Origin: Brachybacterium sp. P6-10-X1
GTDB lineage: Bacteria; Actinomycetota; Actinomycetes; Actinomycetales; Dermabacteraceae
Assembly: GCF_001969445.1 (NCBI RefSeq)
Contig: NZ_CP017297.1
Coordinates: 2,914,001 to 2,978,000 of the forward strand
Direction: 5' to 3'
DNA length: 64,000 nucleotides
Positions 37,455 through 54,557 of the stretch are shown piece by piece. Each line of letters starts with the position of its first letter. Position 1 is the first letter of the stretch. The position numbers and the translations under genes were made by a program. Under the pieces are notes generated by a model. That model was not told the origin of the DNA and did no database searches. It was given only the letters and a program-made list of their open reading frames with translations.

Positions 37455-38089
37455 CCCCCGAGGCGCCTCGCGACCCCGAGCGGCCGACGGCGACCCCTGC
37501 CCTGCATCGCCTCCGCCGACTGCCCGCGCGGTGGCTCGATCGGGGAGGATCCCGGCGCCGGCCGACCGCGCGTCCGCACGCATCCGCGGTGCTCGGCATC
37601 CCGATCCCGCTCCTGCTGACCGCTCTGGTTCTCGCCGCCCTGCTCGGTCTGCTGCTCTCGGTGACGCTGGAGGCGTCGACGGGGAACCGCTCCTACAGCG
37701 TCTCCTCGTCGGTCGAGCAGGACTCGGGCGCCGGGAAGAATTCCTCGGGTCTGCCCGTTGTGACGGAGGCGAGCTTGGGCACCGAGGTGCAGAGACTCGT
37801 CGACTCCGGCATGATCCAGCCGCCGACGAGCTTCGACGCCACCGCGTGCCTGCGGGCGCTGGGAGTCCAGGATTCGGTTCTGATCATGGAGGAGGTCGCA
37901 TGGAGTGCCGACGAGAGCCGTGCCTGGCTGCTCGTGCACGGTCCCATGGACCGCGAGACCCTGCGCGCGAACGGTGGCACGGTCTCCGCCTCGGTGGTCC
38001 GCCAGGACTGCGGCTCCGGCACGGCGGACGGCACCGACCCGGCCGAGAGCCGACTGTGGGCCGGTGAGGTCATGATCGGCTCCCTATGA
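37451..38089 (+). CDS. Single-span membrane protein resembling an orphan anti-sigma factor
   Basis: The 212-residue protein overlaps the pseudokinase stop by ATGA. It has a basic cytoplasmic leader (1-45), one membrane helix (about 48-72, IPIPLLLTALVLAALLGLLL) and an extracellular domain with two cysteines (TACLRALGV and VVRQDCGSG). At this position mycobacteria encode sigM and its anti-sigma factor (Rv3911-Rv3912). The layout and C-terminal domain resemble the anti-sigma partner, but no sigma factor gene is present and the leader is short on recognisable sigma-binding features. The identity is therefore tentative. Confidence 0.55.
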   Translation: MTPEAPRDPERPTATPALHRLRRLPARWLDRGGSRRRPTARPHASAVLGIPIPLLLTALVLAALLGLLLSVTLEASTGNRSYSVSSSVEQDSGAGKNSSGLPVVTEASLGTEVQRLVDSGMIQPPTSFDATACLRALGVQDSVLIMEEVAWSADESRAWLLVHGPMDRETLRANGGTVSASVVRQDCGSGTADGTDPAESRLWAGEVMIGSL

Positions 38090-38194
38090 GATCACCCCGA
38101 TTCCCGAGACCACCCGCCCTGCATCCTGTGCCCGACCGGGCCCCACCGTGGGCCCCCTGAGACCACCACGAACCCTCCGGAAGGACATCACCCC

Positions 38195-39271
38195 ATGTCA
38201 CAGCCCATCCAGGCCCTGAACATCCTCGGCGCCCCCTCGACCCCGTCGGCGGCAACCGCACCGGCGGCCGCGACCCCGGCCGACGACACCGTCCACGAGG
38301 TCGTCATCGTCGGCTCCGGTCCGGCCGGGTACACCGCGGCGATCTACACCGCGCGCGCCGAGATGAAGCCGATCGTCCTCGCCGGGGCCCTGGACGCCGG
38401 CGGAGCGCTGATGACCACGACCGACGTCGAGAACTTCCCGGGCTTCCCCGAGGGCATCCAGGGCCCTGAACTGATGACGCAGATGCAGGAGCAGGCCGAG
38501 CGCTTCGGCGCCGAGGTCATCTTCGAGGACGCCGTCGACCTCCAGCTCGAGGGGGACATCAAGACCGCCACCCTCGACGACGGCACCGTGTACCGCGCGA
38601 AGACGCTGATCCTCTCGACCGGCTCGGCGTACCGAGAGCTGGGGATCGATGGGGAGAGGCAGCTCTCCGGCAAGGGCGTCAGCTGGTGCGCGACCTGCGA
38701 CGGCTTCTTCTTCAAGGACCAGGACATCATCGTCGTCGGTGGTGGCGACAGCGCCGTCGAGGAGGCGACCTTCCTGACCCGTTTCGGCAAGTCCGTGACC
38801 CTGGTGCATCGTCGCGACGAGCTTCGGGCCTCGAAGATCATGGCCCGTCGTGCCGAGGCCGACCCGAAGCTGCAGTTCTCGTGGAACAGCGAGATCGTGA
38901 GCATCAACGGTGAGGAGAAGGTCGAATCGGTGACCCTGCGCGACACCGTCACCGGCGAGGAGCGCGTCATGCCGACGACCGCGGTGTTCGAGGCGATCGG
39001 CCACCTGCCGCGCACCGATCTGCTGCGGGGCAAGCTCGAGCTCGATGAGCAGGGATACATCGTCGTGGAGGGCCGCTCCACCCACACGTCCGTGCCCGGC
39101 GTGTTCGCCGCCGGTGACGTCGTGGACCACACGTACCGTCAGGCCGTCACCGCCGCAGGCACAGGCTGCCAGGCCGCGCTGGACGCCGAGCGGTGGCTGA
39201 CCGACCAGGCCGCCCTGGCCGACGAGCAGGCGAAGGCCGCAGCCGTCGCCGCTGCGCCCGCGGGCCGCTGA
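38195..39271 (+). CDS. trxB: Thioredoxin reductase
   Basis: The 358-residue flavoprotein has the FAD motif GSGPAGYTAAIYTARAE near 38-54, the redox-active WCATCDG with Cys165 and Cys168, the NADPH motif VVGGGDSAVEEATFLTRF near 185-202, and the C-terminal FAD block TSVPGVFAAGDVVD. It passes electrons from NADPH to thioredoxin. The N-terminus has a 25-residue Ala/Pro-rich leader before the first strand. An AAGGAC site lies before ATG 38195. The next gene is a thioredoxin-fold protein that lacks the reducible cysteines. Confidence 0.96.
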   Translation: MSQPIQALNILGAPSTPSAATAPAAATPADDTVHEVVIVGSGPAGYTAAIYTARAEMKPIVLAGALDAGGALMTTTDVENFPGFPEGIQGPELMTQMQEQAERFGAEVIFEDAVDLQLEGDIKTATLDDGTVYRAKTLILSTGSAYRELGIDGERQLSGKGVSWCATCDGFFFKDQDIIVVGGGDSAVEEATFLTRFGKSVTLVHRRDELRASKIMARRAEADPKLQFSWNSEIVSINGEEKVESVTLRDTVTGEERVMPTTAVFEAIGHLPRTDLLRGKLELDEQGYIVVEGRSTHTSVPGVFAAGDVVDHTYRQAVTAAGTGCQAALDAERWLTDQAALADEQAKAAAVAAAPAGR

Positions 39272-39303
39272 GCGCGCACGGACGCGCTCCTGGCGCCCCA
39301 CCG

Positions 39304-39732
39304 ATGACCGCTCCGGACGGCGACCTCGATCCTGCACCGGGACCCGAGGTCGCCGTCCTGCTGGTCACCGCTGCCTGGTCGGCGCCGGCCCGGCCCGCGG
39401 CCACCGTGCTGCGGGAGCTCGCACGCCGCTGGGGGTCGAGAGTTCACGCCCTCCTCGTCGAGGACGCCGACGAGGAGATGCTCGACCTCCTCGGCGTCCA
39501 GACGATCCCGACCTGGATCCGTCTCTCGAGGGCCACTGCCCGGGGGAGCGCGGTGAACTCCTCGGTGACGACATTCCACGAGACGACGTTCCACGATCTG
39601 CGAGCCACCGACCTCCACGGGAACCCCGTCGTCCTCACCGGCGCATGGACGATCACCCACTGCCGCAGCGGCGCTCTGCCGAAGCACGCCGTCGACGAGC
39701 AGTTCGGTCCGGACTCGGGTTCCGCCCCCTGA
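39304..39732 (+). CDS. Thioredoxin-fold protein without the CxxC active site
   Basis: The 142-residue frame starts at ATG 39304, 32 bases after trxB. It occupies the trxA position and has a thioredoxin-like order: a beta strand, then AWSAPARPAATVLRELARRWG, then EEMLDLLGVQTIPTWIRL. The active-site WCGPC is replaced by W25-S26-A27-P28-A29, so both cysteines are gone, while the cis-proline (P69 in TIPT) is kept. It cannot act as a disulfide reductase. There is no good ribosome site; the start is uncertain. A structural or regulatory role, or ongoing decay, is possible. Confidence 0.65.
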   Translation: MTAPDGDLDPAPGPEVAVLLVTAAWSAPARPAATVLRELARRWGSRVHALLVEDADEEMLDLLGVQTIPTWIRLSRATARGSAVNSSVTTFHETTFHDLRATDLHGNPVVLTGAWTITHCRSGALPKHAVDEQFGPDSGSAP

Positions 39733-39854
39733 CGTCCGCGGCTCGCCGGACTTGCTCCCGAGGATCGACCGGGTCCCACCGCGAGGACAGGGTCGAGCCC
39801 AGGTGATCCTGTCAACATGTCCGGGACGGTGCCGCGTCACGAGGGCCGACGCTG

Positions 39855-40111
39855 TTGTCCACAACGTCATCCACAGTGTTGTCCACTGCGAGGTGGGGGT
39901 TCATCCACAGAGTCATCCACATCCTCATGTGGACAACCGGAGGACGAGATTCTCTCCTCCAGGCGTGAGAATCCGCCCGTGACCTGCACAAACAGTGTTC
40001 CAGCGTTCGGCCGCCGACCCATAGGCTTCCTGTCAGAAGCACATTGACACGACGGCCGAGCACGCGTCTCCGGTCACGTTTTCCACAGAGTAACCCACAC
40101 TGTGCACAAGA
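39855..40111. promoter_or_regulatory. DnaA-box array left of the parS cluster
   Basis: Boxes (nine bases each) start at 39855 TTGTCCACA, 39867 TCATCCACA, 39879 TTGTCCACT, 39901 TCATCCACA, 39913 TCATCCACA, 39928 TGTGGACAA (reverse), 40081 TTTTCCACA, 40093 TAACCCACA and 40103 TGTGCACAA (reverse). The first six fall within 82 bases, and several starts are exactly 12 bases apart in the same orientation. This is denser than the dnaA-dnaN region. Confidence 0.8.
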
Positions 40112-40295
40112 CGTCGGTGGACGCGCTCCGCTGCATCGCCGAACCGCGCTCCGCCAGTGCCCCCGTCCGGTTCCCCGTGCTCCACGTGGAACCGGACGGG
40201 GGTGCCCTATATCGGTGTTCGGACGTCGGGGACCTTGTGCTGGCCACCGTCTGTTCGCGATCCGTTCATGCACGTGTCCCCTCACGACAGGCCCG

Positions 40296-40309
40296 GTTCC
40301 CCGTGAAAC
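40296..40309. promoter_or_regulatory. parS: parS site
   Basis: GTTCCCCGTGAAAC, 12 of 14 to the parS consensus. Confidence 0.75.
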
Positions 40310-40425
40310 GTACAGCGACTCCACACCTGCACGGCGTCCCGTCATATCGCGGGCATCAGCACCGCTCGTGCCATCGGTCGAGACGAACCTGGGGAGCACG
40401 GGCACTCCTCCGATCCGAGGAGATT

Positions 40426-40439
40426 GTTCCGCGTGAAAC
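40426..40439. promoter_or_regulatory. parS: parS site
   Basis: GTTCCGCGTGAAAC, 12 of 14 to the parS consensus. Confidence 0.75.
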
Positions 40440-40581
40440 CCCGCGGTCCAGGATGATCTCGCACTGGAAGATTCGGGCCGCGCCTACTCCCGGACTACTC
40501 TGCACTTGAGCTCACGGGGCGATCGGCCCGCATGAGGTCTCGTGGAAGAGTTGACGCCGACCAGTGACGCCGCTCGAACAC

Positions 40582-40595
40582 GTTTCACGGGAAAC
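40582..40595. promoter_or_regulatory. parS: parS site
   Basis: GTTTCACGGGAAAC, 13 of 14; it is the reverse complement of the three sites at 40704, 40823 and 40939. Confidence 0.88.
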
Positions 40596-40703
40596 AGCGC
40601 ACGTGCGCGAAAGCGCACTGGAAGCAGGGCATCTCTCCACGCACTCCATTGCCTCCGCGGGGCTCACCACGCCCTGATCCGAACCCGGCGGTCCATCCAC
40701 GCC

Positions 40704-40717
40704 GTTTCCCGTGAAAC
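40704..40717. promoter_or_regulatory. parS: parS site
   Basis: GTTTCCCGTGAAAC, 13 of 14 to the parS consensus. Confidence 0.88.
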
Positions 40718-40822
40718 CGGGCGAGCTCCACCACCAACGCTCCGGAGAAGGTGTTCCACCAAGCTCTGGCAGCTCGAGCGTGTCCGAGAAGCCAGGGAAT
40801 CACCCTGGCTCACATCTGAGGC

Positions 40823-40836
40823 GTTTCCCGTGAAAC
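40823..40836. promoter_or_regulatory. parS: parS site
   Basis: GTTTCCCGTGAAAC, 13 of 14; 119 bases after the previous site. Confidence 0.88.
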
Positions 40837-40938
40837 AGAGAGCGACGCGTCTACCGACTCCCCGTCGGGCTTGCTGCCTCCCACGAGTGGAGGAGGATCA
40901 GGCACACCGGGCCGGAGCTCTGGAGATTCCCCCACCCG

Positions 40939-40952
40939 GTTTCCCGTGAAAC
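40939..40952. promoter_or_regulatory. parS: parS site
   Basis: GTTTCCCGTGAAAC, 13 of 14; 116 bases after the previous site. Confidence 0.88.
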
Positions 40953-41150
40953 TCTGCGCGTATGACGTCACCGCACCGCACGCCGCGTGAACGACCGCCG
41001 CCGAGATCGCATCCACCGCGGGCTCAGTTCGGACGATGCTCAGATCGAGCACAGGGCAGGGCAGTTCGCAAGCCACCGACTTCGCCCACCAGTCATGGGG
41101 TCGACCATGCAATCACCGACACCGTCATCGACGACGTCTTCTCGCACATG

Positions 41151-41164
41151 GTTTCCCGTGGAAC
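41151..41164. promoter_or_regulatory. parS: parS site
   Basis: GTTTCCCGTGGAAC, 12 of 14 to the parS consensus. Confidence 0.8.
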
Positions 41165-41389
41165 ATGGCCGGCCGCGCACGATCCCCATCAGGTTCACCC
41201 CAGTCTCGGTGCCGTTCATTCACCGAGAGCTTCGACCGAGGTCGCGGTGAGGTTCGCATGGGCGTGCTCCACCCCCCACGGTGCCGCTCCTCTATGACGG
41301 CACGAGCCGGCCGTATGCCGAATCCGCGCCTGAGGAATGGGCAGCTTCATCGACAGCTTCATCGACAGCGCATACCCGTTCTGCACCGT

Positions 41390-41403
41390 GTTCCACGGGA
41401 AAC
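41390..41403. promoter_or_regulatory. parS: parS site
   Basis: GTTCCACGGGAAAC, 12 of 14; exact reverse complement of the site at 41151. Confidence 0.8.
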
Positions 41404-41569
41404 TTTGCCGGAAGGGTGCGACGACCGTCGGCCGAGACGGGGTGTCAATCGTCAGATGCGCAAAGCCCACCGAACGAGCAACGCACCGAGCGACAGCCAA
41501 GCGGCAGCGAAGAGATCATGCATCTGAACGCGTCGCGGTGAGCACAACGAGCCGACCACGCCTGCGAGA

Positions 41570-41583
41570 GTTTCACGAGAAAC
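41570..41583. promoter_or_regulatory. parS: parS site
   Basis: GTTTCACGAGAAAC, 13 of 14 to the parS consensus. Confidence 0.88.
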
Positions 41584-41700
41584 GCGGCCAGTCACGCGTT
41601 CGCGAACATCGTCGTCTAAACCGTCATCACATCCAGTGATCGCCCGAGAGTGGCAGGGACGCCATGTGGTGACCGACTGATCTCCGCCCCGAGTTCTCAC

Positions 41701-41714
41701 GTTTCACGAGAAAC
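41701..41714. promoter_or_regulatory. parS: parS site
   Basis: GTTTCACGAGAAAC, 13 of 14; identical to the site at 41570. Confidence 0.88.
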
Positions 41715-41904
41715 GTACCCGCACACGAGGAAAGGAGGTCCCTGCGGGGCGTACTTGCTGGATGCGAGGAGTTGGAAGGCAGCCAGCACTCGCCTCGCGC
41801 CCCATCACCGACCGATCCGCCGAGAGGTCCGCCGTGGAGGACCAGTCTCAACGGAGTCACTGATCCCAGGTCATGCGCGATCCGACAGCCCTCGGTGGAC
41901 CAGA

Positions 41905-41918
41905 GTTTCACGTCGAAC
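41905..41918. promoter_or_regulatory. parS: parS-like site
   Basis: GTTTCACGTCGAAC, 12 of 14; the central CACGT is kept but the right arm is weaker. Confidence 0.7.
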
Positions 41919-42094
41919 GATCGACCCGTGACCGCTGCTCACGACCAGGATGAGGCATCTCGGCAGCGACGCGGCGATACCCACGTAGGCATGCCGATCG
42001 AGGATCACCGTGCGTGGGGTGATGGCACGGCGCTGTGTCTCGGAGCGCCGTTCCCATCGGACGCGCCGAGACGACCGAAGCGGTTCCACGTGGA

Positions 42095-42199
42095 TCATCC
42101 ACAATGGTGTACACAGTGGTGGACAACGTCGCGTTCAGGATGCTGACCAGCATCGACACATCCAGCGGCACCGACGAGACGTCGTCAGGCTGTGGATGA
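42095..42199. promoter_or_regulatory. DnaA boxes right of the parS cluster
   Basis: TCATCCACA at 42095-42103, GGTGGACAA (reverse, one mismatch) at 42118-42126 and TGTGGATGA (reverse of TCATCCACA) at 42191-42199. The TCATCCACA variant also occurs three times in the left array, so the two flanks look related. Confidence 0.6.
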
Positions 42200-42390
42200 C
42201 AGTGCCGGCCAACGAGGACGCGGGGCGCGCGAGAACATGGACGATGGCGCGGGGTCATCACGAGGAAGAACAGCCGCAAGGATCGTAGCTGACGCAGTAT
42301 GCTCTCGTGTCAGCACCCCGCACAGGAAGACTGTGTGTCCCACATCACATCCGGTGGGCGACGGTCCAGTTCCTCCCTACCAGTCCGTCC

Positions 42391-42427
42391 CCCACCAGTG
42401 CGGCCCCCCCCCCCCACCAGTGCGGCC
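42391..42427. repeat. Twelve-base C homopolymer between short direct repeats
   Basis: C12 runs from 42404 to 42415. The flanks repeat CCCACCAGTGCGGCC (first copy from 42391, second from 42413), so a 22-base unit is present about twice. Such tracts slip in replication and in sequencing. Confidence 0.85.
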
Positions 42428-42536
42428 CTCCACAGGTGCGACCCCACAGGTACGTCGACGTCGCCATCACGGAACTCTCCGTCCCCGGACGGGTAAGGCT
42501 CCCCGGAGTCGGCCGGACGGGGGTGTCCCCGGACAG

Positions 42537-42566
42537 AGAAGGGGGCCGGCGCGAACGCCGGCCCCC
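42537..42566 (-). terminator. Intrinsic terminator of parB
   Basis: An 11-bp GC stem (42541-42551 with 42556-42566, loop CGAA) is followed on the minus strand by TTCTCT. It lies 20 bases after the parB stop. Confidence 0.85.
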
Positions 42567-42586
42567 TGATCATTCACCCGGTGGGA

Positions 42587-44476
42587 TCAGTCCTCGGACT
42601 CCTGAGCGGTACCCGGGGCGGGAGCATCCAACCCCATCGACTCGATCACGCGGTCGAGATCTTCGAGATTCGTGAACTCGAGAGTGATGCGTCCTTTGCG
42701 CTTGCCGACGTCGATGCGGACCGGGGTCTCCAAGCGGTTGGAGAGCCTGCTGGTGAGGTCGACGACGTGGGGGTCGTAGCTGCTGCGTCGGACCGTTCGG
42801 GCAGGCGCCTGCTGACCGCCGCGGGCCACGAGGCGTTCCACGGCGCGGACCGAGAGCCCCTCGGAGACGATGCGCTGGGCGAGTTCCTCCATCAGCGTCG
42901 GATCGTCGAGGGAGAGCAGGGCACGGGCATGTCCGGCGCTCAGGGCGCCGCTGGCGAGCCGGCGCTGAACGAGCGCGGGCAGGCGCAGCAGACGGAGCGT
43001 ATTGGTGATCTGGGGGCGGGAGCGTCCGATCCGGTCGCCCAGCTCGTCCTGGGTGCACCCGAAATCGTCCAGCAGCTGCTGGTAGGCGTTGGCCTCCTCC
43101 AGCGGGTTGAGCTGGGTGCGATGGAGGTTCTCCAGCAGAGCGTCCCGCAGGAGGTCGTCGTCGCTGGTCTCCCGGATGATCGCGGGGATCGATGTGAGTT
43201 CGGCACGACGGGCGGCACGCCAGCGCCGCTCGCCCATCACCAGCTCGAAGGACTCGCCCTCCTCCGTGACGGGGATGGGGCGGACGACGACCGGCTGCAG
43301 CACGCCGACCTCGCGGAGGGAGAACGCGAGCTCGTCGAGTTCGTCGTCATCGAACATGGTGCGGGGATTGCGCGGGTTCTCCCGGACCTCGTGGATCGGA
43401 ATCTCCGCGAACTCGGCGCCCGGGACGCTGAGGAGGCCGTTGCGGCTGCGCTCGGGCTCGCTCCCGGGCTCGGCAGCAGCATCCGGGCTCGCCCCGGCAT
43501 CGACGCCGCCGTCAGCACCGGGTCCACCGTCGTCACCGTGGTCGGACATGGACCCCACGGACTCCTCCGGTGCGGCGTCGGACTGCGTGGCCTCCCCCCG
43601 ATCCGGCTCCGTACCCCGCTGCGGCGGGTTCTCGGTCACCGATCGATCGGACGTCGTCGTGCTCGCGTCGACGACGGGCGACGTCGCCGGTCCCTGCACG
43701 GCCGTGGGTTCAACGGTCTGTGACGCGAGGTCCGGAGTCTCCTCCGGGGCCTCCGTGCGCCCGCTCGTCGATGTGCTGCTGGGGCGGGACGGACTCTTCG
43801 CGGTGCTCTTCGAGGTCGCCGAGCGCTTCGTCGTCGAGCCGGTGCGGGGCGCGTCCCCGCTCCCGGTGCTCCTCGCAGCATCCGTCCTCGCGGATCTCGG
43901 GGACGAGGACCTGTTTTTCGTCGTCGACGAGTTCTTCGTCGCCGATGATTTCCCCGCAGCCGCCGTCGACCGTGAGCTCGGAGCCGACGTCTTCGTCGGC
44001 GTCGTGGACGTCCAGGACGACTTCCCACCGCCGGACGTCGCCGTGTCGGACGCGGGGGCATCAGTCTTCGGACCACCGGATCTCTTCGCGGTGGCGGAAC
44101 CGGTGGTCGATCGCTTCGCCGCGGTTCGTGCCGAGGTCGACGAGGACGTCGCTCCCACCTGGTCGTCATCCGACTCCGGGGAGGGGGAGGAGGCGCTGCG
44201 CGCGGAGGCCGTCCGACCTCGGCGCTGCGCGGCCGCGCGTGCCATGTCCCCGGCGAGGTCCGGTCGTCGGGCGCGTTCCCGCTGAGGACGATCGTCGTCC
44301 CGGGAAGCGCTCTCTCCGGAGAAGAACATGTCGACGGGGCGGTCGCTCGGCGTGGATTCCTCGTCGGCCGATTCCGGACGCACACGCGTGCGCAGCTCCT
44401 GCTCGGGAGCGGGGCCCGACCCCGCGCCCGGGATCAGGGCACCGAGTCCTCGTCCGAGTCCTCGCTTCTGCGTCAT
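42587..44476 (-). CDS. parB: Chromosome-partitioning protein ParB with a very long linker
   Basis: ATG 44476 has an AAGGA site; the product has 629 residues, about twice the usual 300-350. The N-terminal tip KRGLGRGLGALIP is the ParA-activating peptide. Residues from about 20 to 345 are a disordered Ser/Thr/Ala/Lys/Arg-rich insertion, more basic in its first part and acidic near the end. The canonical core starts near 350: EIPIHEVRENPRNPR (CTP-binding ParB/Srx box), GERRWRAARRA (arginine patch), the helix-turn-helix QDELGDRIGRSRPQITNTLRL, and the dimerisation end. It binds parS next door and slides as a CTP-dependent clamp. Confidence 0.95.
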   Translation of the reverse strand: MTQKRGLGRGLGALIPGAGSGPAPEQELRTRVRPESADEESTPSDRPVDMFFSGESASRDDDRPQRERARRPDLAGDMARAAAQRRGRTASARSASSPSPESDDDQVGATSSSTSARTAAKRSTTGSATAKRSGGPKTDAPASDTATSGGGKSSWTSTTPTKTSAPSSRSTAAAGKSSATKNSSTTKNRSSSPRSARTDAARSTGSGDAPRTGSTTKRSATSKSTAKSPSRPSSTSTSGRTEAPEETPDLASQTVEPTAVQGPATSPVVDASTTTSDRSVTENPPQRGTEPDRGEATQSDAAPEESVGSMSDHGDDGGPGADGGVDAGASPDAAAEPGSEPERSRNGLLSVPGAEFAEIPIHEVRENPRNPRTMFDDDELDELAFSLREVGVLQPVVVRPIPVTEEGESFELVMGERRWRAARRAELTSIPAIIRETSDDDLLRDALLENLHRTQLNPLEEANAYQQLLDDFGCTQDELGDRIGRSRPQITNTLRLLRLPALVQRRLASGALSAGHARALLSLDDPTLMEELAQRIVSEGLSVRAVERLVARGGQQAPARTVRRSSYDPHVVDLTSRLSNRLETPVRIDVGKRKGRITLEFTNLEDLDRVIESMGLDAPAPGTAQESED

Positions 44477-44561
44477 GGCCGTTGTCCTTCCGGAAAGTGT
44501 TCCACCAGGGGAGAAACCAGGAGCACGCGAGGCGTCGTCGCAGAGGTGCTCCGGGCTGGTG

Positions 44562-45485
44562 TCAGGGGGCGGGGCGGGTAGTCAGCTCGTGGGCGGCGGC
44601 CCGGTAGGCCAGGGCGCCGCTGGAACCGGAATCATAGGTCAGGACCGTCTGACCGTAGCTCGGTGCTTCGGAGATCCTCACGGAGCGGGGGATCGTCGTG
44701 GTGAGGGTCTGATCCGGGAAATGGTCCCGGACGTCCTGCGCGACCTGTGCGGCGAGCCTGGTTCGGGCGTCGTACATGGTCAGCATGATCGAGGAGACCA
44801 CCAGCTCCGGGTTGAGGTGCTGGCGGATCAGCTCGATGTTGTTCAGCAGCAGGCTCAGGCCCTCCAGCGCGTAGTACTCGGCCTGGATGGGAATCAGCAC
44901 CTCGCGAGCCGCGACCAGGGCGTTCACGGTCAGCAGGCCGAGGGAGGGCGGGCAGTCGACCAGCACGTAGTCCAGACGCGGCAATCCCTGCTCCTCGCGG
45001 AACTCGAAATAGTCCCGGAGAGCACCCCGCAGGCGGTTCTCACGGGCCACCAGGGACACCAGCTCGATCTCGGCACCGGAGAGGTGGATCGTGGCGGGAG
45101 CGCAGGACATGCGGTCCATGTCCGGGACGTCCTGGACCACGTCGGCGAGCGGAGTCGACTCGACCAGGACCTCGTACATGCTGGGGACCTCGGCGTGATG
45201 CTCGATGTTCAGCGCGGTCGAGGTGTTCCCCTGCGGATCCGCGTCGAGCACCAGCACGTGCAGACCACCCATGGACAGGGCGGCCGCCAGGTTCACGGCG
45301 GTGGACGTCTTGCCGACGCCGCCCTTCTGGTTCGCCACCGTGATCACTCGGGTCGCCTCGGGCGGGCGGAAATCCGCCGTCTCGAGCTGCTCCCGTCGCG
45401 CGTGGTCCCGGGTGAGCTCACGCATCAGCGGGGTGTCTTCCATCGCCCCGCGCCCCCGGGAGGAGTCGTCGCGCTGGTCAGCCAC
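44562..45485 (-). CDS. parA: Chromosome-partitioning ATPase ParA (Soj)
   Basis: The GTG start at 45485 lies inside the rsmG 3' end (8-base overlap). The 307-residue protein has an N-terminal extension of about 45 residues, the deviant Walker A KGGVGKT at 54-60 (the signature lysine is Lys54), LVLDADPQGN near 80, and LVDCPPSLGLLTVNAL (Walker B) near 155. ParA forms ATP-dependent dimers on the nucleoid and moves ParB-parS complexes. It is followed by parB after 85 bases. Confidence 0.96.
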   Translation of the reverse strand: MADQRDDSSRGRGAMEDTPLMRELTRDHARREQLETADFRPPEATRVITVANQKGGVGKTSTAVNLAAALSMGGLHVLVLDADPQGNTSTALNIEHHAEVPSMYEVLVESTPLADVVQDVPDMDRMSCAPATIHLSGAEIELVSLVARENRLRGALRDYFEFREEQGLPRLDYVLVDCPPSLGLLTVNALVAAREVLIPIQAEYYALEGLSLLLNNIELIRQHLNPELVVSSIMLTMYDARTRLAAQVAQDVRDHFPDQTLTTTIPRSVRISEAPSYGQTVLTYDSGSSGALAYRAAAHELTTRPAP

Positions 45486-46143
45486 GTGTCACTCCCTTCC
45501 TGGTCGCCTGTGCTCGGCGACGCACGAGGACCACTGTAGTGGGAACCTCGACCTCGCCGACCCCGTACCGCTCGATGCGCGGATCACTCCCGCCGAGCTT
45601 CGTCAGCACTGTGCCCGCCTTGTCCACTTCGTCCGCCGCGGAGCCGCCTTTCAGCGCCAGCAGCTGTCCGTCCTCGGCGACCAGTGGAAGGGTCCAGCGG
45701 GCCAGCTTGTCCAACGCGGCCACCGCCCGGGCGGTCACCGCATCGAAGGTACGCCGCCCGTGCAGCTCCTCGGCGCGGGCGCGCACCACCTCGAGGCCCA
45801 GGCCGAGCTCGGCGTCGACCTCCTCCAGCCAGGTGGCGCGTCGCTGCATCGTCTCGATGAGCGTGACCTCCAGGTCCGGGCGTGCGATCGCGAGGACCAC
45901 CCCGGGCAGGCCGGCGCCGGAGCCGACGTCGGCGAGGGTTCTCGCGGCCGGGTCGATCGCCTCGACCATCAGGGCGCAGTTGAGGACGTGCCGCTCCCAC
46001 AGCCGCTCCACCTCGCGAGGGCCGATCAGACCGCGTTCGGGGCCCTGCTCGGCGAGCAGGGTGGTGAAGCGCTCGGCCAGCTCGAGGCGATCCGCGAACA
46101 GACGCTCGGCCGGCGGCCGCAGGGCATCGGGCAGAGGCAGCAC
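45478..46143 (-). CDS. rsmG: 16S rRNA (guanine-N7) methyltransferase RsmG (GidB)
   Basis: The 221-residue protein begins with GTG 46143 and has the SAM motif DVGSGAGLPG at 72-81. The usual GidB landmarks are also present: ERHVLNC near 50, VTLIETMQRRATWLEEV near 95 and VTARAVAALDKL near 135. It methylates G527 of 16S rRNA (E. coli numbering); loss gives low-level streptomycin resistance. It is translationally close to both jag (8-base gap) and parA (overlap). Confidence 0.96.
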   Translation of the reverse strand: MLPLPDALRPPAERLFADRLELAERFTTLLAEQGPERGLIGPREVERLWERHVLNCALMVEAIDPAARTLADVGSGAGLPGVVLAIARPDLEVTLIETMQRRATWLEEVDAELGLGLEVVRARAEELHGRRTFDAVTARAVAALDKLARWTLPLVAEDGQLLALKGGSAADEVDKAGTVLTKLGGSDPRIERYGVGEVEVPTTVVLVRRRAQATRKGVTRG

Positions 46144-46151
46144 GGGATGCC

Positions 46152-46793
46152 TCAGGAGGCCGGGTAGATGACGACGTGGCGGTTCTTGCCGTCCCCGTCG
46201 GACTCCGAGCGCAGCCCCTCGCGCTTGGCGACATCGTGGACGACCTTGCGCTCGAAGGGATTCATGGGCCGCAGCGGCACCGGCTCGCTGCCGTCCTTGG
46301 CCTCGGACACCGCCTTCTCGGCGAGATCCTCGAGGCTCTCCTTGTGCTCGGCCCGGAAACCGCCGATATCGAGCATCAGGCGGGAGCGGTTGCCGGTGCG
46401 GGTCTGCACGGCCAGGCGTGCGAGCTCCTGCAGCGCATCCAGCAGCTCCCCCTTGGGACGGTTGAGCCGTGCGAGACGGTCGGCGCCGGCGATCTCCACA
46501 GACGCCCGGTCGCCGTCCACGTCGATGTCGATGTCGCCGTCGAGGTCGGCGATGTCCAGCAGCTCCTCGAGGTAGTCGGCGGCGATGTCACCCTCCTCCT
46601 CGAGGCGCCGCATGCGGTCCTCCGCCGATTCGGCGGTCTCCGGAGCTCCATCCGTCTCGACGGAACCGTCGGTCGTCCCCGCGGACCCGTCGGCGTCCGG
46701 GGACTGCGGCGCCGACGCGCCCTCCGCGACGGCAGAGGTCGGCTGCTCGTCGGTCTCGTCGGTCGTGGGGCGATCGGACGTGGTCTCGTTCAT
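46152..46793 (-). CDS. jag: RNA-binding protein Jag/KhpB (KH-R3H)
   Basis: The start at ATG 46793 follows GGAGGATT; a longer frame to 46871 is rejected. The 213-residue protein has an acidic Thr/Ser-rich N-terminus (about 1-65), a KH domain (about 70-140, GDIDIDVDGDRASVEIAG then NRPKGELLDALQELARLA as landmarks) and a C-terminal R3H domain with MNPFERKVVHDVAKREG (the R-xxx-H element). The Jag_N domain is absent, as is common in Actinobacteria. It partners with KhpA in RNA binding linked to cell elongation. A strong hairpin separates it from yidC. Confidence 0.93.
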   Translation of the reverse strand: MNETTSDRPTTDETDEQPTSAVAEGASAPQSPDADGSAGTTDGSVETDGAPETAESAEDRMRRLEEEGDIAADYLEELLDIADLDGDIDIDVDGDRASVEIAGADRLARLNRPKGELLDALQELARLAVQTRTGNRSRLMLDIGGFRAEHKESLEDLAEKAVSEAKDGSEPVPLRPMNPFERKVVHDVAKREGLRSESDGDGKNRHVVIYPAS

Positions 46794-46832
46794 TCGAATC
46801 CTCCGGGGAACATGCTCGGGATGTGAGAGGTG

Positions 46833-46858
46833 CGCCCCGGGAGCGTCGGCGCTCCCGG
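46833..46858 (-). terminator. Hairpin between yidC and jag
   Basis: CCCCGGGAGCG (46833-46843) and CGCTCCCGGGG (46848-46858) form a perfect 11-bp stem with a TCGG loop, 10 bases after the yidC stop. There is no T-run, so it may attenuate or stabilise the message instead of ending it. Confidence 0.5.
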
Positions 46859-46867
46859 GGTGCGAGG

Positions 46868-47983
46868 TCACTTCTTGCGCTTCTTCTTCGCGCCCTTGTT
46901 CAGCGGCGAGGAACTCGAGGAGGGAGGCGGTTCAGGAGACTCCCCGGCCGCTTCCTGCGCCATGCGGCGCTCCTCGGCGGCCTTCTCCCGGGCGGCACGG
47001 GCACGCTCGAGCTTCTCCTGGTCCGACAGCTTCTTGCCGCCCTTGTTCTTCGCGGACGGCTGGATCCGGAGGTTCTGCTCCGGTTCGGGCTCCGGCTCCG
47101 CGGAGACCTTCTTGGGCGGGGTGAAGTCGAGCGGCTCGAGGCCCTTCCTCTCCCGCTTGGCGTTGATGCGCTCGTGGCGCTCCTTGGCCGCGTCCGAGCC
47201 CGGGGTCGGGGTGGCGCGGATGACGATGTACTGCTGGCAGAAGGTCCACACGTTGGTCGTCAGCCAGTAGATGAGCACACCGATCGGCATGCCCGGCCCC
47301 GTGATCACATAGATGAACGGGAGCATGTACAGCATCATCTTCTGCGTGTTCGCCATGGGGCCCTCGAGGGCCGCCTTCGGCATGTTCTTCATGGTCAGCG
47401 ACTTCTGAGTGAAGAAGGTGACCGCGCACATGCAGGCGATGATGATGCCGGCGACGATCTTGGTGGTGATGCCTCCGTCGCCCGAGCTCAGGAAGCTGTC
47501 GGCGATGGTGACGTCGCCGAGGATCGTGGAGTGACTGGCGCTCTGGGCGAGTTCGGGGGTCAGGGGGCCGAAGCGGGTGCCGTCGGCGGCCTCCGGCAGC
47601 TTGTTGTACAGCACCCGGAACAGGCCGAAGAAGATCGGCATCTGCAGCAGCATCGGCAGACACGAGGAGAACGGGCTGGCCCCGGCCTCCTTGTAGATCG
47701 ACATGGTCTCCTCCGCCATCTTCTGGCGGGAGGCCTGGTCGGTCTTGCCCTTGTACTTCTTCTGGACGGCCTGCAGCTCGGGCGAGACCATCTGCATCGC
47801 GCGCGAGGCGCGGATCTGCCGCACGAACAGCGGGATGATCAGGGTTCGCACCACGACGGTGAGGCCCACGATCGACAGCACCCAGGTGAGGCCGGAGTCC
47901 GGCTCCATGAACGTCGACAGCAGCGCATGGAACTTCACCATGAGCCATGCGACGGCCCATTCGATCGGATACAGGGGGTTCAT
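46868..47983 (-). CDS. yidC: Membrane protein insertase YidC (Oxa1 family)
   Basis: The 371-residue protein has the short N-terminus of Gram-positive YidC and five membrane segments. The conserved Oxa1 region includes TVVVRTLIIPLFVRQI with the hydrophilic-groove arginine, PFSSCLPMLLQMPIFFGLF, and MPIGVLIYWLTTNVWTFCQQ. The C-terminal 100 residues are charged and lysine-rich, ending in KKKRKK, which is a ribosome-contact tail. It inserts membrane proteins alone or with SecYEG. Position between yidD/rnpA and jag is standard. Confidence 0.96.
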   Translation of the reverse strand: MNPLYPIEWAVAWLMVKFHALLSTFMEPDSGLTWVLSIVGLTVVVRTLIIPLFVRQIRASRAMQMVSPELQAVQKKYKGKTDQASRQKMAEETMSIYKEAGASPFSSCLPMLLQMPIFFGLFRVLYNKLPEAADGTRFGPLTPELAQSASHSTILGDVTIADSFLSSGDGGITTKIVAGIIIACMCAVTFFTQKSLTMKNMPKAALEGPMANTQKMMLYMLPFIYVITGPGMPIGVLIYWLTTNVWTFCQQYIVIRATPTPGSDAAKERHERINAKRERKGLEPLDFTPPKKVSAEPEPEPEQNLRIQPSAKNKGGKKLSDQEKLERARAAREKAAEERRMAQEAAGESPEPPPSSSSSPLNKGAKKKRKK

Positions 47984-48068
47984 CGGCCTGGTCTTCCTGC
48001 CGCACGGATGCGCATGACGTTCATACGAGGTGCCGGCTCTGGTCGGTAATCATGGACAAGGGTAGGCC

Positions 48069-48383
48069 CTAGGGGGCCGGGTGCCGCAGTCGGCGTGGAT
48101 TCCTCCACATGCCCGGTGCCGGCACCGGGTCGAGGCCTCCTCGACTCACCGGATTGCAGCGCAGGATCCGTCCGACGGTCAGGATCGTGCCTTTGACCGC
48201 ACCGTGCACCCGCAGGGCGTCCATGCCGTACTGCGAGCACACCGGGTCGTACCGGCAGCCGGGTGGGGTGTAGGGCGAGATCCCGACCTGATAGCCCCGC
48301 ACGAGGAGGGACAGCGCTCGGCGGGGCAGATGCAGGCCCGCGCGGAGAATGCTGTTCCTGCCGGCCGGATCCGCTCTGGTCAT
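48069..48383 (-). CDS. yidD: Membrane-protein insertion efficiency factor YidD
   Basis: The 104-residue protein is the UPF0161/YidD family: RGYQVGISPYTPPGCRYDPVCSQYG (only landmarks: GYQVGISP, CRYDPVCSQYG) and HGAVKGTILTVGRILRCNPVSRGGLDPVP. The three conserved cysteines are present. YidD is an amphipathic inner-membrane-associated protein that helps YidC-dependent insertion. Its start overlaps the rnpA stop (ATGA), the usual coupling. Confidence 0.95.
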   Translation of the reverse strand: MTRADPAGRNSILRAGLHLPRRALSLLVRGYQVGISPYTPPGCRYDPVCSQYGMDALRVHGAVKGTILTVGRILRCNPVSRGGLDPVPAPGMWRNPRRLRHPAP

Positions 48384-48748
48384 CGCGCGACCTGTGCGCG
48401 ACGTTCGAGCTTGGTCACGGCCGAGCCCAGGGCGGAGGCGACCTCGGCCTCGAGCTGCGCGAAGGGCACCCGGTCGATGCCGGGAAGGGAGCGCACCACG
48501 ACGGCGGACCCCGGCGGCAGCTCCGCCAGGCGCGGGCGCACGATCTCCCGGAGCCGACGGGTCACCCGGTTGCGGACCACGGCGTTGCCGACCTTCTTGG
48601 ACACGACGAATCCCACGCGGGCCGCATCGGAATCCTGCCCCAGCAGGTTCAGATGCACGACCACGTGGGATCGAGCGCTGCGAGTGCCACCTCGGGTGAC
48701 GGCGCGGAACTGGTCACCGCTGTGCAGGCGACGACTGGACCAGTTCAT
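48380..48748 (-). CDS. rnpA: RNase P protein component
   Basis: The 122-residue basic protein has the RnpA hallmark near 46-68: VGFVVSKKVGNAVVRNRVTRRLRE. The N-terminal helix and FRAVTRGG strand are also typical. It binds the RNase P RNA and helps cut tRNA 5' leaders. The stop overlaps the yidD start, and rpmH lies just upstream, as in nearly all bacteria. Confidence 0.96.
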   Translation of the reverse strand: MNWSSRRLHSGDQFRAVTRGGTRSARSHVVVHLNLLGQDSDAARVGFVVSKKVGNAVVRNRVTRRLREIVRPRLAELPPGSAVVVRSLPGIDRVPFAQLEAEVASALGSAVTKLERRAQVAR

Positions 48749-48784
48749 GGACGTCTGGCGCGCTGCCCCTGGTCAGGGACCAGA

Positions 48785-48922
48785 TCAGGAGGTGATCTCG
48801 GCGCGGCCCTTGGCGCGACGGGCGTTGACGATCGCCCGGCCGGCGCGGGTGCGCATGCGGGCGCGGAAGCCGTGCTTCTTCGCGTGACGACGGTTGTTCG
48901 GCTGGAACGTGCGCTTGCTCAT
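48785..48922 (-). CDS. rpmH: Ribosomal protein bL34
   Basis: The 45-residue basic protein starts at ATG 48922 (GAGGAGAA site). It shows the invariant bL34 pattern [30 protein letters not shown] and [11 protein letters not shown]. It is the first gene of the minus-strand rpmH-rnpA-yidD-yidC-jag-rsmG-parA-parB block, divergent from dnaA across the left part of oriC. Confidence 0.98.
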
Positions 48923-49314
48923 CGGTTCTCCTCGATCATGGGCACGGGCGTACCCCTCGCGGTGGTCTGTGGTCTGCTGCACGAACGGACTGTTCGGGCG
49001 CACCCGCGGGGCGGGGCGGCTGCCGGGAACCGTGTCAAGACGGCGCGCAGCGCTGACTGCACGATCTTAGGAGCGCGGTGGCGAGGGGTCAACGGCCGGA
49101 GCCCTCAGCAGCTCGGTTGTGGCCCGATTCTCATCACCGGGCGCGCCGAGGGGCGTTTCGCGCCGCCCAGGGGCCACGGGAGAGCGGTGGGCACGCGCTC
49201 CTGATGCGGTGGAGGAACCTCTCATGGGTGATTGTCCACAGCGTCGATCCACAATACAGCGGCTACTGTGGAAAACTACCCGGACCGCCGAACCACCCTG
49301 TACGGAGAGACCAC
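48923..49314. promoter_or_regulatory. oriC: rpmH-dnaA divergent region with DnaA boxes (left part of oriC)
   Basis: About 390 bases between divergent rpmH and dnaA. DnaA boxes are TTGTCCACA (49232-49240, perfect), CGATCCACA (49245-49253, two mismatches) and TGTGGAAAA (49267-49275, reverse, a TTWTCCACA match), all within 85 bases of the dnaA start. They suggest DnaA autoregulation and possibly part of the origin. The first 250 bases hold the rpmH promoter; no clear hexamers were identified. Confidence 0.7.
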
Positions 49315-50973
49315 ATGCCTGACGCGAACGTCGCCGCGATCTGGGAGCGCACCCTGGCCACCCTGCGCCGTGACGACGCCGTGTCCCAGCGCGTGATCGC
49401 CCTGCTGACGCTGTCCCGCCTGATGGCCGTCGTCGCTGACACCGCCCTGGTCGCAGCGCCGTCGACCTCCGCGAAGGAGCTGTTCGAGCACCGGGTCGCC
49501 GGCTCGCTGAAGGCCGCTCTCAGCGAAGCCGTCGGCCATGAGATGCGCTTCGCCGTGACGGTCGACGAGTCGCTCCTGCTGGAGGAGAACACCGACGACC
49601 ACGCCGTGACCTCCGCGTCGGGGACCGGCAGTGCACATTCTGTGGACAGAGATGTGGACAGTCCCGCGCAGGACGTCCACACCGCGCCGTTCCGCCGCGA
49701 CGAAGGCTCGATCCTGCCCCCCGCCGGGCAGCAGGGGCGCGCCGCACTGCCCGATCCTTCCTCGGTCGCGTCTGCCGGGGCACCCTCGACCGGTACCGCG
49801 GCGGAGGACCCCGGTGCCTTCGCCGGGCTCTCGGCGGTGACCGGCACGTCCGCCCCGTCCCCGGGTCCGGCGCCGCAGCGCCCTGCCCCCGCGGCCGACC
49901 GCACCCTCGGCGAGGACTCGCGTCTGAACGCCAAGTACACCTTCGACACCTTCGTGATCGGGTCCTCGAACCGCTTCGCCCAGGCCGCGGCCTCCGCCGT
50001 CTCGGAGACTCCCGCCAAGGCGTACAACCCGCTGTTCATCTACGGTGGCTCGGGACTCGGCAAGACCCACCTGCTGCACGCGGTGGGCCACTACGCCCAG
50101 AGCCTGTACCCGGAGGTCGTGGTGCGGTACGTGAACTCCGAGGAGTTCACCAACGACTTCATCAACTCCGTGCAGTCGGGCCGGTTCGGCCAGGCCCAGG
50201 AGTTCCAGCGCCGCTACCGGGACATCGACATCCTGCTGATCGACGACATCCAGTTCCTGCAGCGCGCGCCGGAGACGATGGAGGCGTTCTTCCATACGTT
50301 CAACACGCTGTACAACACCGACAAGCAGATCGTGATCACCTCGGATCTGCCTCCGAAGGAGCTCGGAGGCTTCGAGGACCGCATGCGTTCTCGTTTCGAG
50401 ATGGGTCTGATGACCGATGTGCAGCCCCCGGACCTCGAGACCCGCATCGCGATCCTGCGCAAGAAGGTCGCTCAGGAGAACACCGGCGAGGTACCGCACG
50501 AGGTGCTGGAGTACATCGCCTCCCACATCGCCACCAACATCCGCGAGCTCGAGGGGGCCCTGATCCGGGTGCAGGCGCTGCATTCCCTCTCCCGGCAGCC
50601 GATGGACGTCACGCTCGCGGAGTCGGTGCTCAAGGACCTGCTCTCCCACGACGACGGTGCCCAGATCACCGCCTCGACGATCATCGCCCAGACCGCGACC
50701 TACTTCGGGATCTCCGTCGAGGAGATCGTGGGGACGGGACGCTCGCGTCGACTGGTCTCGGCCCGCCAGATCGGGATGTACCTCTGCCGGGAGCTGACGG
50801 ACATGCCGCTGATCCGCATCGGTGAGGAGTTCGGCGGCCGGGACCACACGACGGTGATGCACGCCAACAAGAAGATCAGCGAGCTCATGAAGGAGCGTCG
50901 GGCGATCTTCAACCAGGTCACGGAGCTCACCGCTCGCATCAAGAGCTCCAACTCCGCCTCCTCCCGCCCGTGA
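49315..50973 (+). CDS. dnaA: Replication initiator DnaA
   Basis: I use ATG 49315 (GGAGAGA site), giving 552 residues. Domain I is at about 1-95, followed by a long Pro/Ala/Ser-rich domain II linker (about 95-210), AAA+ domain III with Walker [10 protein letters not shown] (about 243) and Walker [10 protein letters not shown] (about 306), and domain IV with the DNA-binding signature [14 protein letters not shown]. It binds TTWTCCACA boxes to open the origin. Two DnaA-box-like sequences lie inside the coding region for the linker (49641 and 49653). Confidence 0.98.
49641..49661 (-). promoter_or_regulatory. Two DnaA-box-like sites inside dnaA
   Basis: TGTGGACAG occurs at 49641-49649 and 49653-49661, each one mismatch from TGTGGACAA (reverse of TTGTCCACA) and 12 bases apart. 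They encode the SVDRDVDS part of the linker. Confidence 0.45.
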
Positions 50974-51439
50974 CGGAATGACATTCCTGGTCAGGGCGCC
51001 GTTCTCCCCAATTGTGGACAACTCTGTGGATAGTGTGGAGCGCGGAGCATCCACGCAGGACGCGATGTGCACGGTCGAATGACGAGAATCTGCTGTCGAC
51101 GCCGAGATGTGCACACCCCACCCACGTCCGGCCTCTCGCGGTCAACGATCCGTCCACGACACCGTCATTCATGCTGACCTGCACTGATCTTGGTTGTCCA
51201 CGGAGTCCACAGCCGTGATGAAGAGGACTGTAGTTCTGTGCTCGACGGGGATGTGGACGGGACGGGGTGCGGGGGAGGCGGAGAGGATCGTGTGATGCGG
51301 GGGCGCCGGGGCACGGGAGGAAGCACGGACGAGGAGGGGTCGCTGTCAAGGATCACCGCCGGTGTGTCGGCGGAAGGCCGTGGGAACCGATACGCTGTCT
51401 CCCGTTCTGGCTATCGACCACTGCGAAGGAGTGGCAACG
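50974..51439. promoter_or_regulatory. oriC: dnaA-dnaN intergenic region, likely core oriC
   Basis: This 466-base gap is the standard actinobacterial origin position. DnaA boxes: TGTGGACAA (51013-51021, reverse, perfect), TGTGGATAG (51025-51033, reverse), TTGTCCACG (51194-51202), GAGTCCACA (51203-51211) and TGTGGACGG (51252-51260, reverse). Gene strand also switches around this block. No single AT-rich unwinding element stands out. The dnaN promoter must lie here too. Confidence 0.8.
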
Positions 51440-52564: not shown

Positions 52565-52584
52565 GGGAGAGCGAGCTCCCCTCC

Positions 52585-53844: not shown

Positions 53845-54557
53845 GCCCGTCGCCCCGTCGGCCGCGGCTCGCGAACCCCTATGACCTCTCGACCTGGAAC
53901 GCTGCCCCCGAGGGAGCTCCGCGGGAAGGTGGCGCCGCATCGCATCCACCCGCGGTCCGGGAGCCCGATCCACAGCCCGGACCCGATCAGGACCCCGAAC
54001 CGGAGCAGGAGTTCTTCGACCCGCCGGACCTGCCCTCCCCGTCGGACCCCTTCGAGCTGGCCCGACGCACCGTGAACCGCTCCCGGGCGGCCGCGCGCGA
54101 CCGCGGGCTGTTCCCGATCTCCGCGAAGACGCAGGCCCGGGACGTGCGGGACCGCTCCGGGAAGGCGCCCGGGTACTCCGGGTCCCGCCCCGCCCCCCGC
54201 GACCCCCAGGGCATCGATCTGGTGCTGAGGAAGGTGCTGGGCAATCTCGGGTGGAACGCCGGGATGAACGCCGGACGCGTGCTGGAGGAGTGGGACGAGA
54301 TCGTCGGGGAGAAGGTCGGCTCCCACTGCCGTCCCGTCTCCCTCGAGGACGGGGTGCTGGTGGTCAGTGCGTCCTCGTCCGCCTGGGCCGCGCAGCTGCG
54401 CATGCTGACCGGCCAGCTGGTCACCACGATCGAGGAGCACGTCGGCTCCCACGTCGTCTCGGAGCTGAAGGTCACCGGCCCCGCCGCCGCCGAACGGTCC
54501 TGGAAGAAGGGACGGCGCACCGTCACCTGGCGCGGCCCCCGCGATACCTACGGCTAA
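53841..54557 (+). CDS. DUF721 (DciA-like) protein
   Basis: The 238-residue protein overlaps recF (ATGA). Residues 1-120 are Pro-rich and disordered. The DUF721 domain occupies about 125-215: LRKVLGNLGWNAGMNAGRVLEEWDEIVGEKVGSHCRPVSLEDGVLVV (landmarks EEWDEIVGEKV and GVLVVSASSSAWAAQLRML). It corresponds to Rv0004, which sits between recF and gyrB in mycobacteria. DUF721 proteins (DciA) load the replicative helicase in bacteria lacking DnaC. That function is inferred from the family. Confidence 0.9.
   Translation: MSPSPRRPRLANPYDLSTWNAAPEGAPREGGAASHPPAVREPDPQPGPDQDPEPEQEFFDPPDLPSPSDPFELARRTVNRSRAAARDRGLFPISAKTQARDVRDRSGKAPGYSGSRPAPRDPQGIDLVLRKVLGNLGWNAGMNAGRVLEEWDEIVGEKVGSHCRPVSLEDGVLVVSASSSAWAAQLRMLTGQLVTTIEEHVGSHVVSELKVTGPAAAERSWKKGRRTVTWRGPRDTYG

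Follow-up and report, generated by a model that had tools for sequence, protein, structure and literature searches.

A predicted DnaA assembly site on both sides of a putative parS centromere in Brachybacterium

Introduction

How the initiation of replication is linked to chromosome segregation in bacteria is an open question outside a few model species. The DnaA boxes at parS of Caulobacter crescentus reportedly go back to Mera et al. 2014, and the DnaA-box clusters of Streptomyces coelicolor are said to be the subject of Smulczyk-Krawczyszyn et al. 2006. According to passages in PMC6399470 and PMC6667618, the Caulobacter boxes are at parS, roughly 8 kb away from the origin, and DnaA acts there. 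In B. subtilis the removal of all six DnaA-box clusters (DBCs) leads to early initiation as one passage of PMC5295017 has it, and elsewhere in the same review a significant regulatory role for them is doubted; in a passage of PMC5742627 a DnaA-box cluster outside oriC of Streptomyces coelicolor is said to repress untimely initiation. On Vibrio cholerae chromosome II the regulatory locus rctA/parS2 contains initiator sites together with parS, the initiator there being RctB and not DnaA. E. coli datA needs an IHF site. It is an intergenic DnaA-box cluster downstream of genes, and is described as repressing untimely initiation.

The locus described here lies in the trxB-parB interval of a Brachybacterium chromosome, within a window of 64 kb (the whole stretch of DNA that was analysed), and shares something with each of these systems. 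Like datA it is a cluster of DnaA boxes that is intergenic and follows the ends of genes, and like the B. subtilis DBCs it is oriC-proximal and outside oriC. In its dense and conserved boxes it resembles sites of the DBC or titration type. It also joins initiator sites to parS, as rctA/parS2 does, and is an actinobacterial cluster outside oriC, as in Streptomyces, the latter likeness being one of description. With DnaA boxes, at which DnaA binding is predicted, close to oriC and within or next to parS, it resembles the DnaA-bound centromere of Caulobacter as those passages describe it (the boxes there being some 8 kb off the origin, and here roughly 9-11 kb off the dnaA-dnaN interval). In contrast to Caulobacter, the setting is the Actinobacteria, the parS sites are 13 and degenerate, arrays stand on both sides of them with a 12-bp phase and an oriC motif, and the DnaA sites are predicted ones. 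DnaA and parS site sets are interlocked in one interval of less than 3 kb in the window, in a geometry kept over most of the genus, and a second family has an arrangement related to it; a literature search covering listings of open-licence papers showed no description of such a parS-bracketing DnaA-box arrangement.

DnaA boxes and parS sites in the trxB-parB interval

The interval of 2.86 kb has parB on one side and trxB plus a small ORF on the other. The sequence-only reading had counted nine DnaA-type boxes to the left of the parS sites and three to the right, and these are present where it put them: eight on the left (39855-40109) at ≤1 mismatch to TTNTCCACA, a ninth that is weak (40091, TAACCCACA), and three on the right with starts at 42095, 42118 and 42191. 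Most fall into three modules, M1 and M2 on one parS flank and M3 on the other, each combining boxes spaced 12 bp apart on one strand with a box in inverted orientation. M1 (39855..39936, plus strand) holds six boxes in exactly the 82 bases earlier claimed for them, at 39855+, 39867+, 39879+, 39901+, 39913+ and 39928-, with offsets of 0, 12, 24, 46, 58 and 73 and the last inverted. M2 (40079..40109, plus strand) is made of 40079+ TTTTCCACA, the weak box at 40091+ and 40101- TTGTGCACA, with offsets of 0, 12 and inverted 22. M3 (42095..42126, plus strand) has 42095+ TCATCCACA, which shares three bases with the last parS site, the weak 42107+ GTGTACACA and 42118- TTGTCCACC, with offsets of 0, 12 and inverted 23. 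A lone DnaA-like box on the minus strand, again TCATCCACA, came from the box scan at 42191..42199; a fixed counterpart of this box was not made out in the genus relatives.

This density is well beyond random expectation. At ≤1 mismatch to TTNTCCACA the window has 30 box-like sites against 12.6 expected (mean of 100 shuffled windows, maximum 22, none reaching 30), and the interval has 11 against 1.26, a number that 0/100 shuffles reach. In a contiguous 354-kb part of the chromosome at least four boxes per 300 bp are reached at three places, and these are the parS locus with 8, dnaA-dnaN with 4 and genome position 3,019,404 with 4. The dnaA gene (plus strand, Pfam Bac_DnaA) and the adjacent dnaN are both where they had been placed.

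Between the two groups of boxes the parS array claimed earlier is real though degenerate, and runs from 40178 to 42097 as 13 ParB sites with 2-4 mismatches to the 16-mer TGTTTCACGTGAAACA. The first seven start at 40178, 40295, 40425, 40581, 40703, 40822 and 40938 and the last six at 41150, 41389, 41569, 41700, 41904 and 42082. In the 4.39-Mb genome six sites are within one mismatch of the 14-mer core GTTTCACGTGAAAC, and all six are in the trxB-parB interval; per genus locus there are 10-17 parS sites in 31/32, the exception being L048. These clustered ParB-site-like palindromes near parAB and oriC are what a parS array would look like, with putative ParB binding at degenerate sites.

Over positions 37500-54000 Rfam at gathering thresholds gave no family. 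A hidden gene in the interval was considered and taken as absent: among 34 stop-to-stop frames of at least 60 aa only two matched anything in the relatives that were fetched, one at six loci in short pieces with the frame covering M1 itself, and the other at one locus over 15 residues.

Conservation in Brachybacterium and beyond

Comparison of related genomes shows that the trxB-parB interval persists in 31 Brachybacterium relatives, with the box modules kept in most of the genus. The 35 same-genus genomes include four without a ParB match (G001, G005, G006 and G024), and the comparison at parB covers every one of the remaining 31 (L031-L061); in G022 (L061) the ParB match is in three pieces, and a fixed 3.3-kb stretch served as the interval in loci lacking a trxB match. 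Boxes exceed the shuffle mean in 32/32 genus loci, which being related are not independent, with a total of 279 against 46.1 expected. No shuffle of 100 reaches the observed number in 27/32, and in the remaining 5/32 some do (9/100 in L049). Counts over 31 rows refer to the window plus 30 relatives. The stretch of L048, from G032, is without an anchor box, and this locus is outside these counts; it was checked through L147, where the interval is enlarged to about 8 kb with the modules still present.

Boxes 2-5 of M1 (0, 12, 34, 46) are kept at ≤2 mismatches in 26/31 loci, M1 having diverged in the five that failed this four-box test (L051, L054, L057, L059 and L060). Within the 26, which were lined up on one box and so describe the conserved members with the five diverged rows left out, identity between species is 92% for the M1 box cores, 36% for the spacers and 27-32% for the flanks. 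Exact cores number 18, 21, 21 and 24 for boxes 1 to 4, 26 for box 5 (the anchor) and 23 for the inverted box 6, whose core is absent in 3/26. The M1 triplet pattern occurs exactly in 25/38 genus genomes, once in each, and for the 21 of these 25 with a parB position all 21 matches are at the M1 place; at ≤2 mismatches there are 33 matches against 18 for the reversed control. The distance from M1 to M2 is mostly 151 or 161 bp. Taken as maxima over a search stretch, for which 0/155 shuffled stretches reach even a score of 20 for either module, M2 scores at least 22/27 in 24/31 loci and below 22 in 7/31, and M3, beside parB, at least 22/27 in 19/31 and below 22 in 12/31.

Outside the genus, a genus of a second family (21/26 genomes sampled) carries a pair of 12-bp-phased arrays downstream of parB in 20/21 loci, and in 18 loci a parS lies between both arrays; trxB is ≤5 kb from parB in 7/21, and it is for those 7 only that the interval is shown to be the same. 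Beyond both genera the trxB side of parB showed a 12-bp-phased array in 0/20 other order-level loci, in 0/28 named loci of other genera and in 0/40 class-level loci (40/69 genomes fetched), the last being the sample that bears on the Streptomyces coelicolor comparison; in one of these, L207, a stretch of 60 bp holds three boxes that are not phased.

Possible functions of the locus

Conservation in the genus, a single triplet per genome in 25/38 and placement round the parS cluster together support a functional DnaA site linked to the centromere, and this part of the sequence-only reading is supported, in contrast to its suggestion of a true origin. The reading we prefer, with a probability of roughly 0.6 as judged from sequence, is that of a non-origin predicted DnaA assembly site built into the centromere, which would capture DnaA and couple initiation to ParB-parS. 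DnaA would bind M1-M3 and form oligomers there with the DNA staying closed. With the dnaA-dnaN interval about 9-11 kb away, the site would be copied early after initiation and could then capture DnaA, so damping re-initiation. Further, DnaA occupancy and ParB/ParA activity may sense each other, since the site lies along the borders of the ParB-loaded region, and initiation and centromere separation would thereby be coupled.

Somewhat short of even odds is that the locus is purely a DnaA titration or timing site, with its position beside parS incidental and reflecting only closeness to the origin. Titration and coupling fit the sequence evidence alike. The high density of boxes near oriC is as a sink would have it, non-origin clusters damping initiation are known (from the passages of PMC5742627 and PMC5295017), and there are further tandem-box places, for example 98-405 kb off on the dnaN side in 12 measurable genomes, which are not necessarily orthologous. 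However a sink would not need inverted boxes at a kept spacing, M1-M2 distances near 151/161 bp, a motif in common with oriC or sites that flank the parS array to left and right, and the second family likewise has its arrays around parS.

A DARS-like site that regenerates active ATP-DnaA seems distinctly improbable. What suggests it is the make-up of the triplets, a tandem pair of boxes at a 12-bp interval and a third in inverted orientation, which is also that of E. coli DARS1 and DARS2, where the cores read 0, 12 and inverted 26 (in a mirrored reading) and where, according to a review, one box is opposite to the other two. M1 boxes 4-6, M2 and M3 have the inverted box at 27, 22 and 23 and are thus off by 1, 4 and 3 bp, so the DARS core spacing is not found in any of the three. 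Moreover a dnaA-dnaN triplet (51002..51033, with boxes 51002+, 51013- and 51025-) has the M3 spacing read in reverse, M3 being its mirror image, and the topology is therefore not special to DARS. We know of no DARS-type activity in Actinobacteria.

That the parS locus is an auxiliary or the true replication origin is very unlikely, even though it has a dense 12-bp-phased DnaA-box cluster with an oriC motif and, in the window and 7/30 relatives, the least stable 60 bp of the fetched 12-20 kb in M1-M2. The dnaA-dnaN interval retains boxes, the motif and a conserved segment (51208..51230, plus strand) that adjoins its last boxes and is taken to be its likely unwinding side. This 23-base segment from the window has 15-23 positions matched in 30 genus dnaA-dnaN loci (two loci being cut short), 29 at 17 or more, and in the parS interval of 32 loci only 13-16, which is the level of the shuffled window interval (mean 14.3, maximum 18). 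With the segment matched there at chance level, the trxB-parB locus is, on this sequence comparison, probably not the replication origin. Duplex stability does not discriminate, since the dnaA-dnaN minimum is about as low as that of M1-M2 and both are among the least stable stretches, and the GC skew of the 354 kb in which the window lies is of no help, being weak, irregular and without a clear turning point.

That DnaA regulates the transcription of trxB or parAB, which the boxes adjoin, is scarcely credible because the boxes sit between convergent 3' ends, where a promoter of the flanking genes is not expected. Chance or a compositional artefact, for which the lower GC of the interval (64% against 70.6% in the window) might speak, is negligible, and is contradicted by dinucleotide shuffles of the interval itself and by conservation.

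A motif common to oriC and the parS locus

The linker between M1 and M2 contains the motif TGACCTGC (39980..39987, plus strand) that is also found in oriC, where it lies at 51175..51182 on the plus strand with its start 19 bases ahead of the box at 51194. In search windows picked after the alignments were seen, TGACCWGC occurs at +60..+84 of the anchor box (39913) exactly in 20/31 loci and at ≤1 mismatch in 24/31 (shuffled means 0.02 and 0.54), and in the 40-bp flank of M3, among the 25 loci with a scored M3, TGACCWG occurs exactly in 12/25 and at ≤1 mismatch in 18/25 (shuffled means 0.12 and 2.02); in the window the M3 copy is TGACCAGC (42144..42151, plus strand), 17 bases past M3. The motif was counted in dnaA-dnaN flanks over 25 or 29 loci, and it is found in a comparable position in dnaA-dnaN intervals of other actinobacterial genera, a set of 37 from 48 loci after length and gene filters, 8 of them from Kribbella.

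The common CTGACCTGC motif hints at a possible further origin-binding factor in Actinobacteria. A bolder version, which we regard as rather unlikely, is that the centromere carries oriC-like control modules: a putative CTGACCTGC-reading protein of actinobacterial origins would act also at the parS-flanking arrays and set DnaA activity there, the ParB-parS state would license initiation, and the array-parS-array plan would be old and common to the two families. A 5' copy of TGACSTGC at ≤1 mismatch is present in 20/31 loci, the window itself being without it. Genome-wide, TGACSTGCA has 149 matches against 58 for the reversed control, and so the motif alone marks nothing and it is only its place that does.

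DnaA-box modules around the parS array

In the Brachybacterium genome, a single contig of 4,385,603 bases, the trxB-parB interval spans about 2.86 kb, is bounded on one side by a small ORF downstream of a trxB-type gene and on the other by parB, and has convergent gene ends as its flanks. It holds 11 DnaA-box-like sites (at most one mismatch to TTNTCCACA), and the whole window 30 such sites against a shuffle mean of 12.6. Most of the interval's sites fall into three modules. M1 (39855-39936) has five same-strand boxes at offsets 0, 12, 24, 46 and 58 and one inverted box at 73, and M2 (40079-40109) and M3 (42095-42126) are triplets with a weak middle box, spaced 0, 12, inverted 22 and 0, 12, inverted 23 respectively. 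Between M2 and M3 lies a parS array of 13 degenerate sites (40178-42097), and in the window the last parS shares 3 bases with the first M3 box.

A perfect 14-mer parS core is absent from the 4.39 Mb, and the six sites with one mismatch are all in 40178-42097. Because all six genome-wide matches to GTTTCACGTGAAAC at up to one mismatch sit inside the trxB-parB interval, this is very probably, on sequence grounds, the main or only centromere of the chromosome. ParB specificity in Brachybacterium may differ. One relative (G032, locus L147) has the interval enlarged to about 8 kb, with gaps free of parS; M1 and M2 persist there, as do parS sites and a portion of M3.

Conservation in the genus

The sequence-only reading had drawn attention to dense DnaA boxes here, which are confirmed, and had proposed comparing relatives. 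With 100 dinucleotide shuffles of the interval per locus, across 32 genus loci (the window and 31 relatives), the box count exceeded the shuffle mean in every one, with 279 boxes in all where 46.1 were expected; in 27 loci no shuffle reached the observed count, and in the other five between 1 and 9 did. The four-box core of M1 (24 letters) is kept at up to two mismatches in 26 of the 31 relatives, G032 being scored through L147, and the window has one mismatch; the test failed in L051, L054, L057, L059 and L060, each of which retains 5-7 boxes in the interval. Across the 26 loci with a clear M1, between-species identity is 92% in box cores, 36% in spacers and 27-32% in flanks, and cores of boxes 1-5 are exact in 18, 21, 21, 24 and 26 loci and that of the inverted box in 23, individual boxes not being kept in some species. 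The 30-bp pattern of boxes 4-6 is exact in 25 of 38 genus genomes, in one copy each, and stands at the M1 place in all 21 exact-match genomes with a known parB position; at up to two mismatches it gives 33 matches versus 18 for the reversed pattern. Scores of at least 22 of 27 were obtained for M2 in 24 and for M3 in 19 of 31 loci, and for each module none of 155 shuffled stretches reached 20. M1 and M2 lie 149-153 bp apart in 10 loci, 158-163 bp in 12 and 168-170 bp in 4; the remaining 5 loci have distances from 127 to 213 bp.

A proposed role and its alternatives

The sequence itself shows the sites, how they are conserved and where they stand; DnaA binding at M1-M3, capture and coupling we infer. 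Most likely DnaA would assemble on M1-M3 with the DNA staying closed, and the modules would withdraw DnaA shortly after oriC fires; at the edges of a ParB-loaded centromere such withdrawal could couple initiation to segregation. The sequence-only reading had suggested coupling to ParB loading. A pure DnaA titration site stands at somewhat under even odds, a reading that overlaps with the main one. Known functional relatives are the DnaA boxes at Caulobacter parS (PMC6667618, PMC6399470), datA and DARS (PMC5742627, PMC8682772) and the B. subtilis DnaA-box clusters, the importance of which their source also doubts (PMC5295017). E. coli DARS cores (0, 12, inverted 26) are near but not identical to M1 boxes 4-6 (0, 12, inverted 27). 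Searches of open-licence papers brought up no account of this particular arrangement.

That the parS locus is itself the true origin, an option of the sequence-only reading, is probably wrong: a 23-base segment adjoining the last dnaA-dnaN boxes, by its place the presumed unwinding side of the origin, matches the window reference at 15-23 positions in 30 genus loci (at least 17 in 29 of them), and in the parS interval of 32 loci the match is at shuffled level, 13-16 versus a shuffled mean of 14.3 and maximum of 18. No clear turning point emerges from GC skew across 354 kb, and duplex stability does not tell the parS locus and dnaA-dnaN apart.

Parts in common with oriC

The dnaA-dnaN interval has a box triplet (51002+, 51013- and 51025- in the window), kept in most of 30 genus loci compared, with the M3 spacing in reverse reading. 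The motif TGACCWGC stands at conserved places and is exact in the M1-M2 linker (20/31 loci), beyond M3 (8/25), left of the dnaA-dnaN triplet (6/25) and before the right-hand dnaA-dnaN box (16/29), and a TGACSTGC version is exact 5' of M1 (16/31). For these stretches, which were picked once the alignments had been viewed, shuffled control means are at most 0.05. Linker, M3 and right-hand oriC copies are present in the window, and the 5' copy is absent from it. A similar motif precedes the last dnaA-dnaN boxes in several other actinobacterial genera (L062-L125), where CTGACCTGC (window 51175-51182) recurs about 19-20 bases before them; GCAGGTCA or its complement is exact in 15 of 37 dnaA-dnaN intervals, a sample in which Kribbella is over-represented. 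CTGACCTGC looks like an origin element that some factor would bind.

Other box groups and other genera

Tandem boxes 12 bp apart lie within the dnaA coding region (49641-49661), and several genus genomes have similar pairs at a distance of about 1.4-1.5 kb from their dnaA-dnaN pair. On the dnaN side, about 294 kb off and near a pyroglutamyl-peptidase gene, is a further group (G000:C1:3247829-3248175; L144:5829-6175); a tandem pair was found on that side 98-405 kb from parB in 12 genus genomes that allowed the measurement. Four DnaA-like boxes in 300 bp (G000:C1:3019404-3019703) make a third dense place within 354 kb.

A second genus, g6, of another family, has two 12-bp-phased arrays downstream of parB in 20 of 21 loci, with parS between both in 18 (exceptions L151, L157 and L153) and the M1 four-box core at up to five mismatches in 15. 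A phased array on the trxB side of parB was seen in none of 20 other order-level loci, 28 named loci of other genera and 40 class-level loci. Kribbella and Humibacillus also pair DnaA boxes with parS, in another interval, upstream of parA: a box group stands there in 9 of 10 Kribbella loci (L101-L105, L111, L112, L114, L115), with a parS that begins 56 bases beyond the last box's start in those nine, and in 4 of 9 Intrasporangiaceae-type loci, two of which (Humibacillus, L107 and L123) have a parS start at most 60 bases away.
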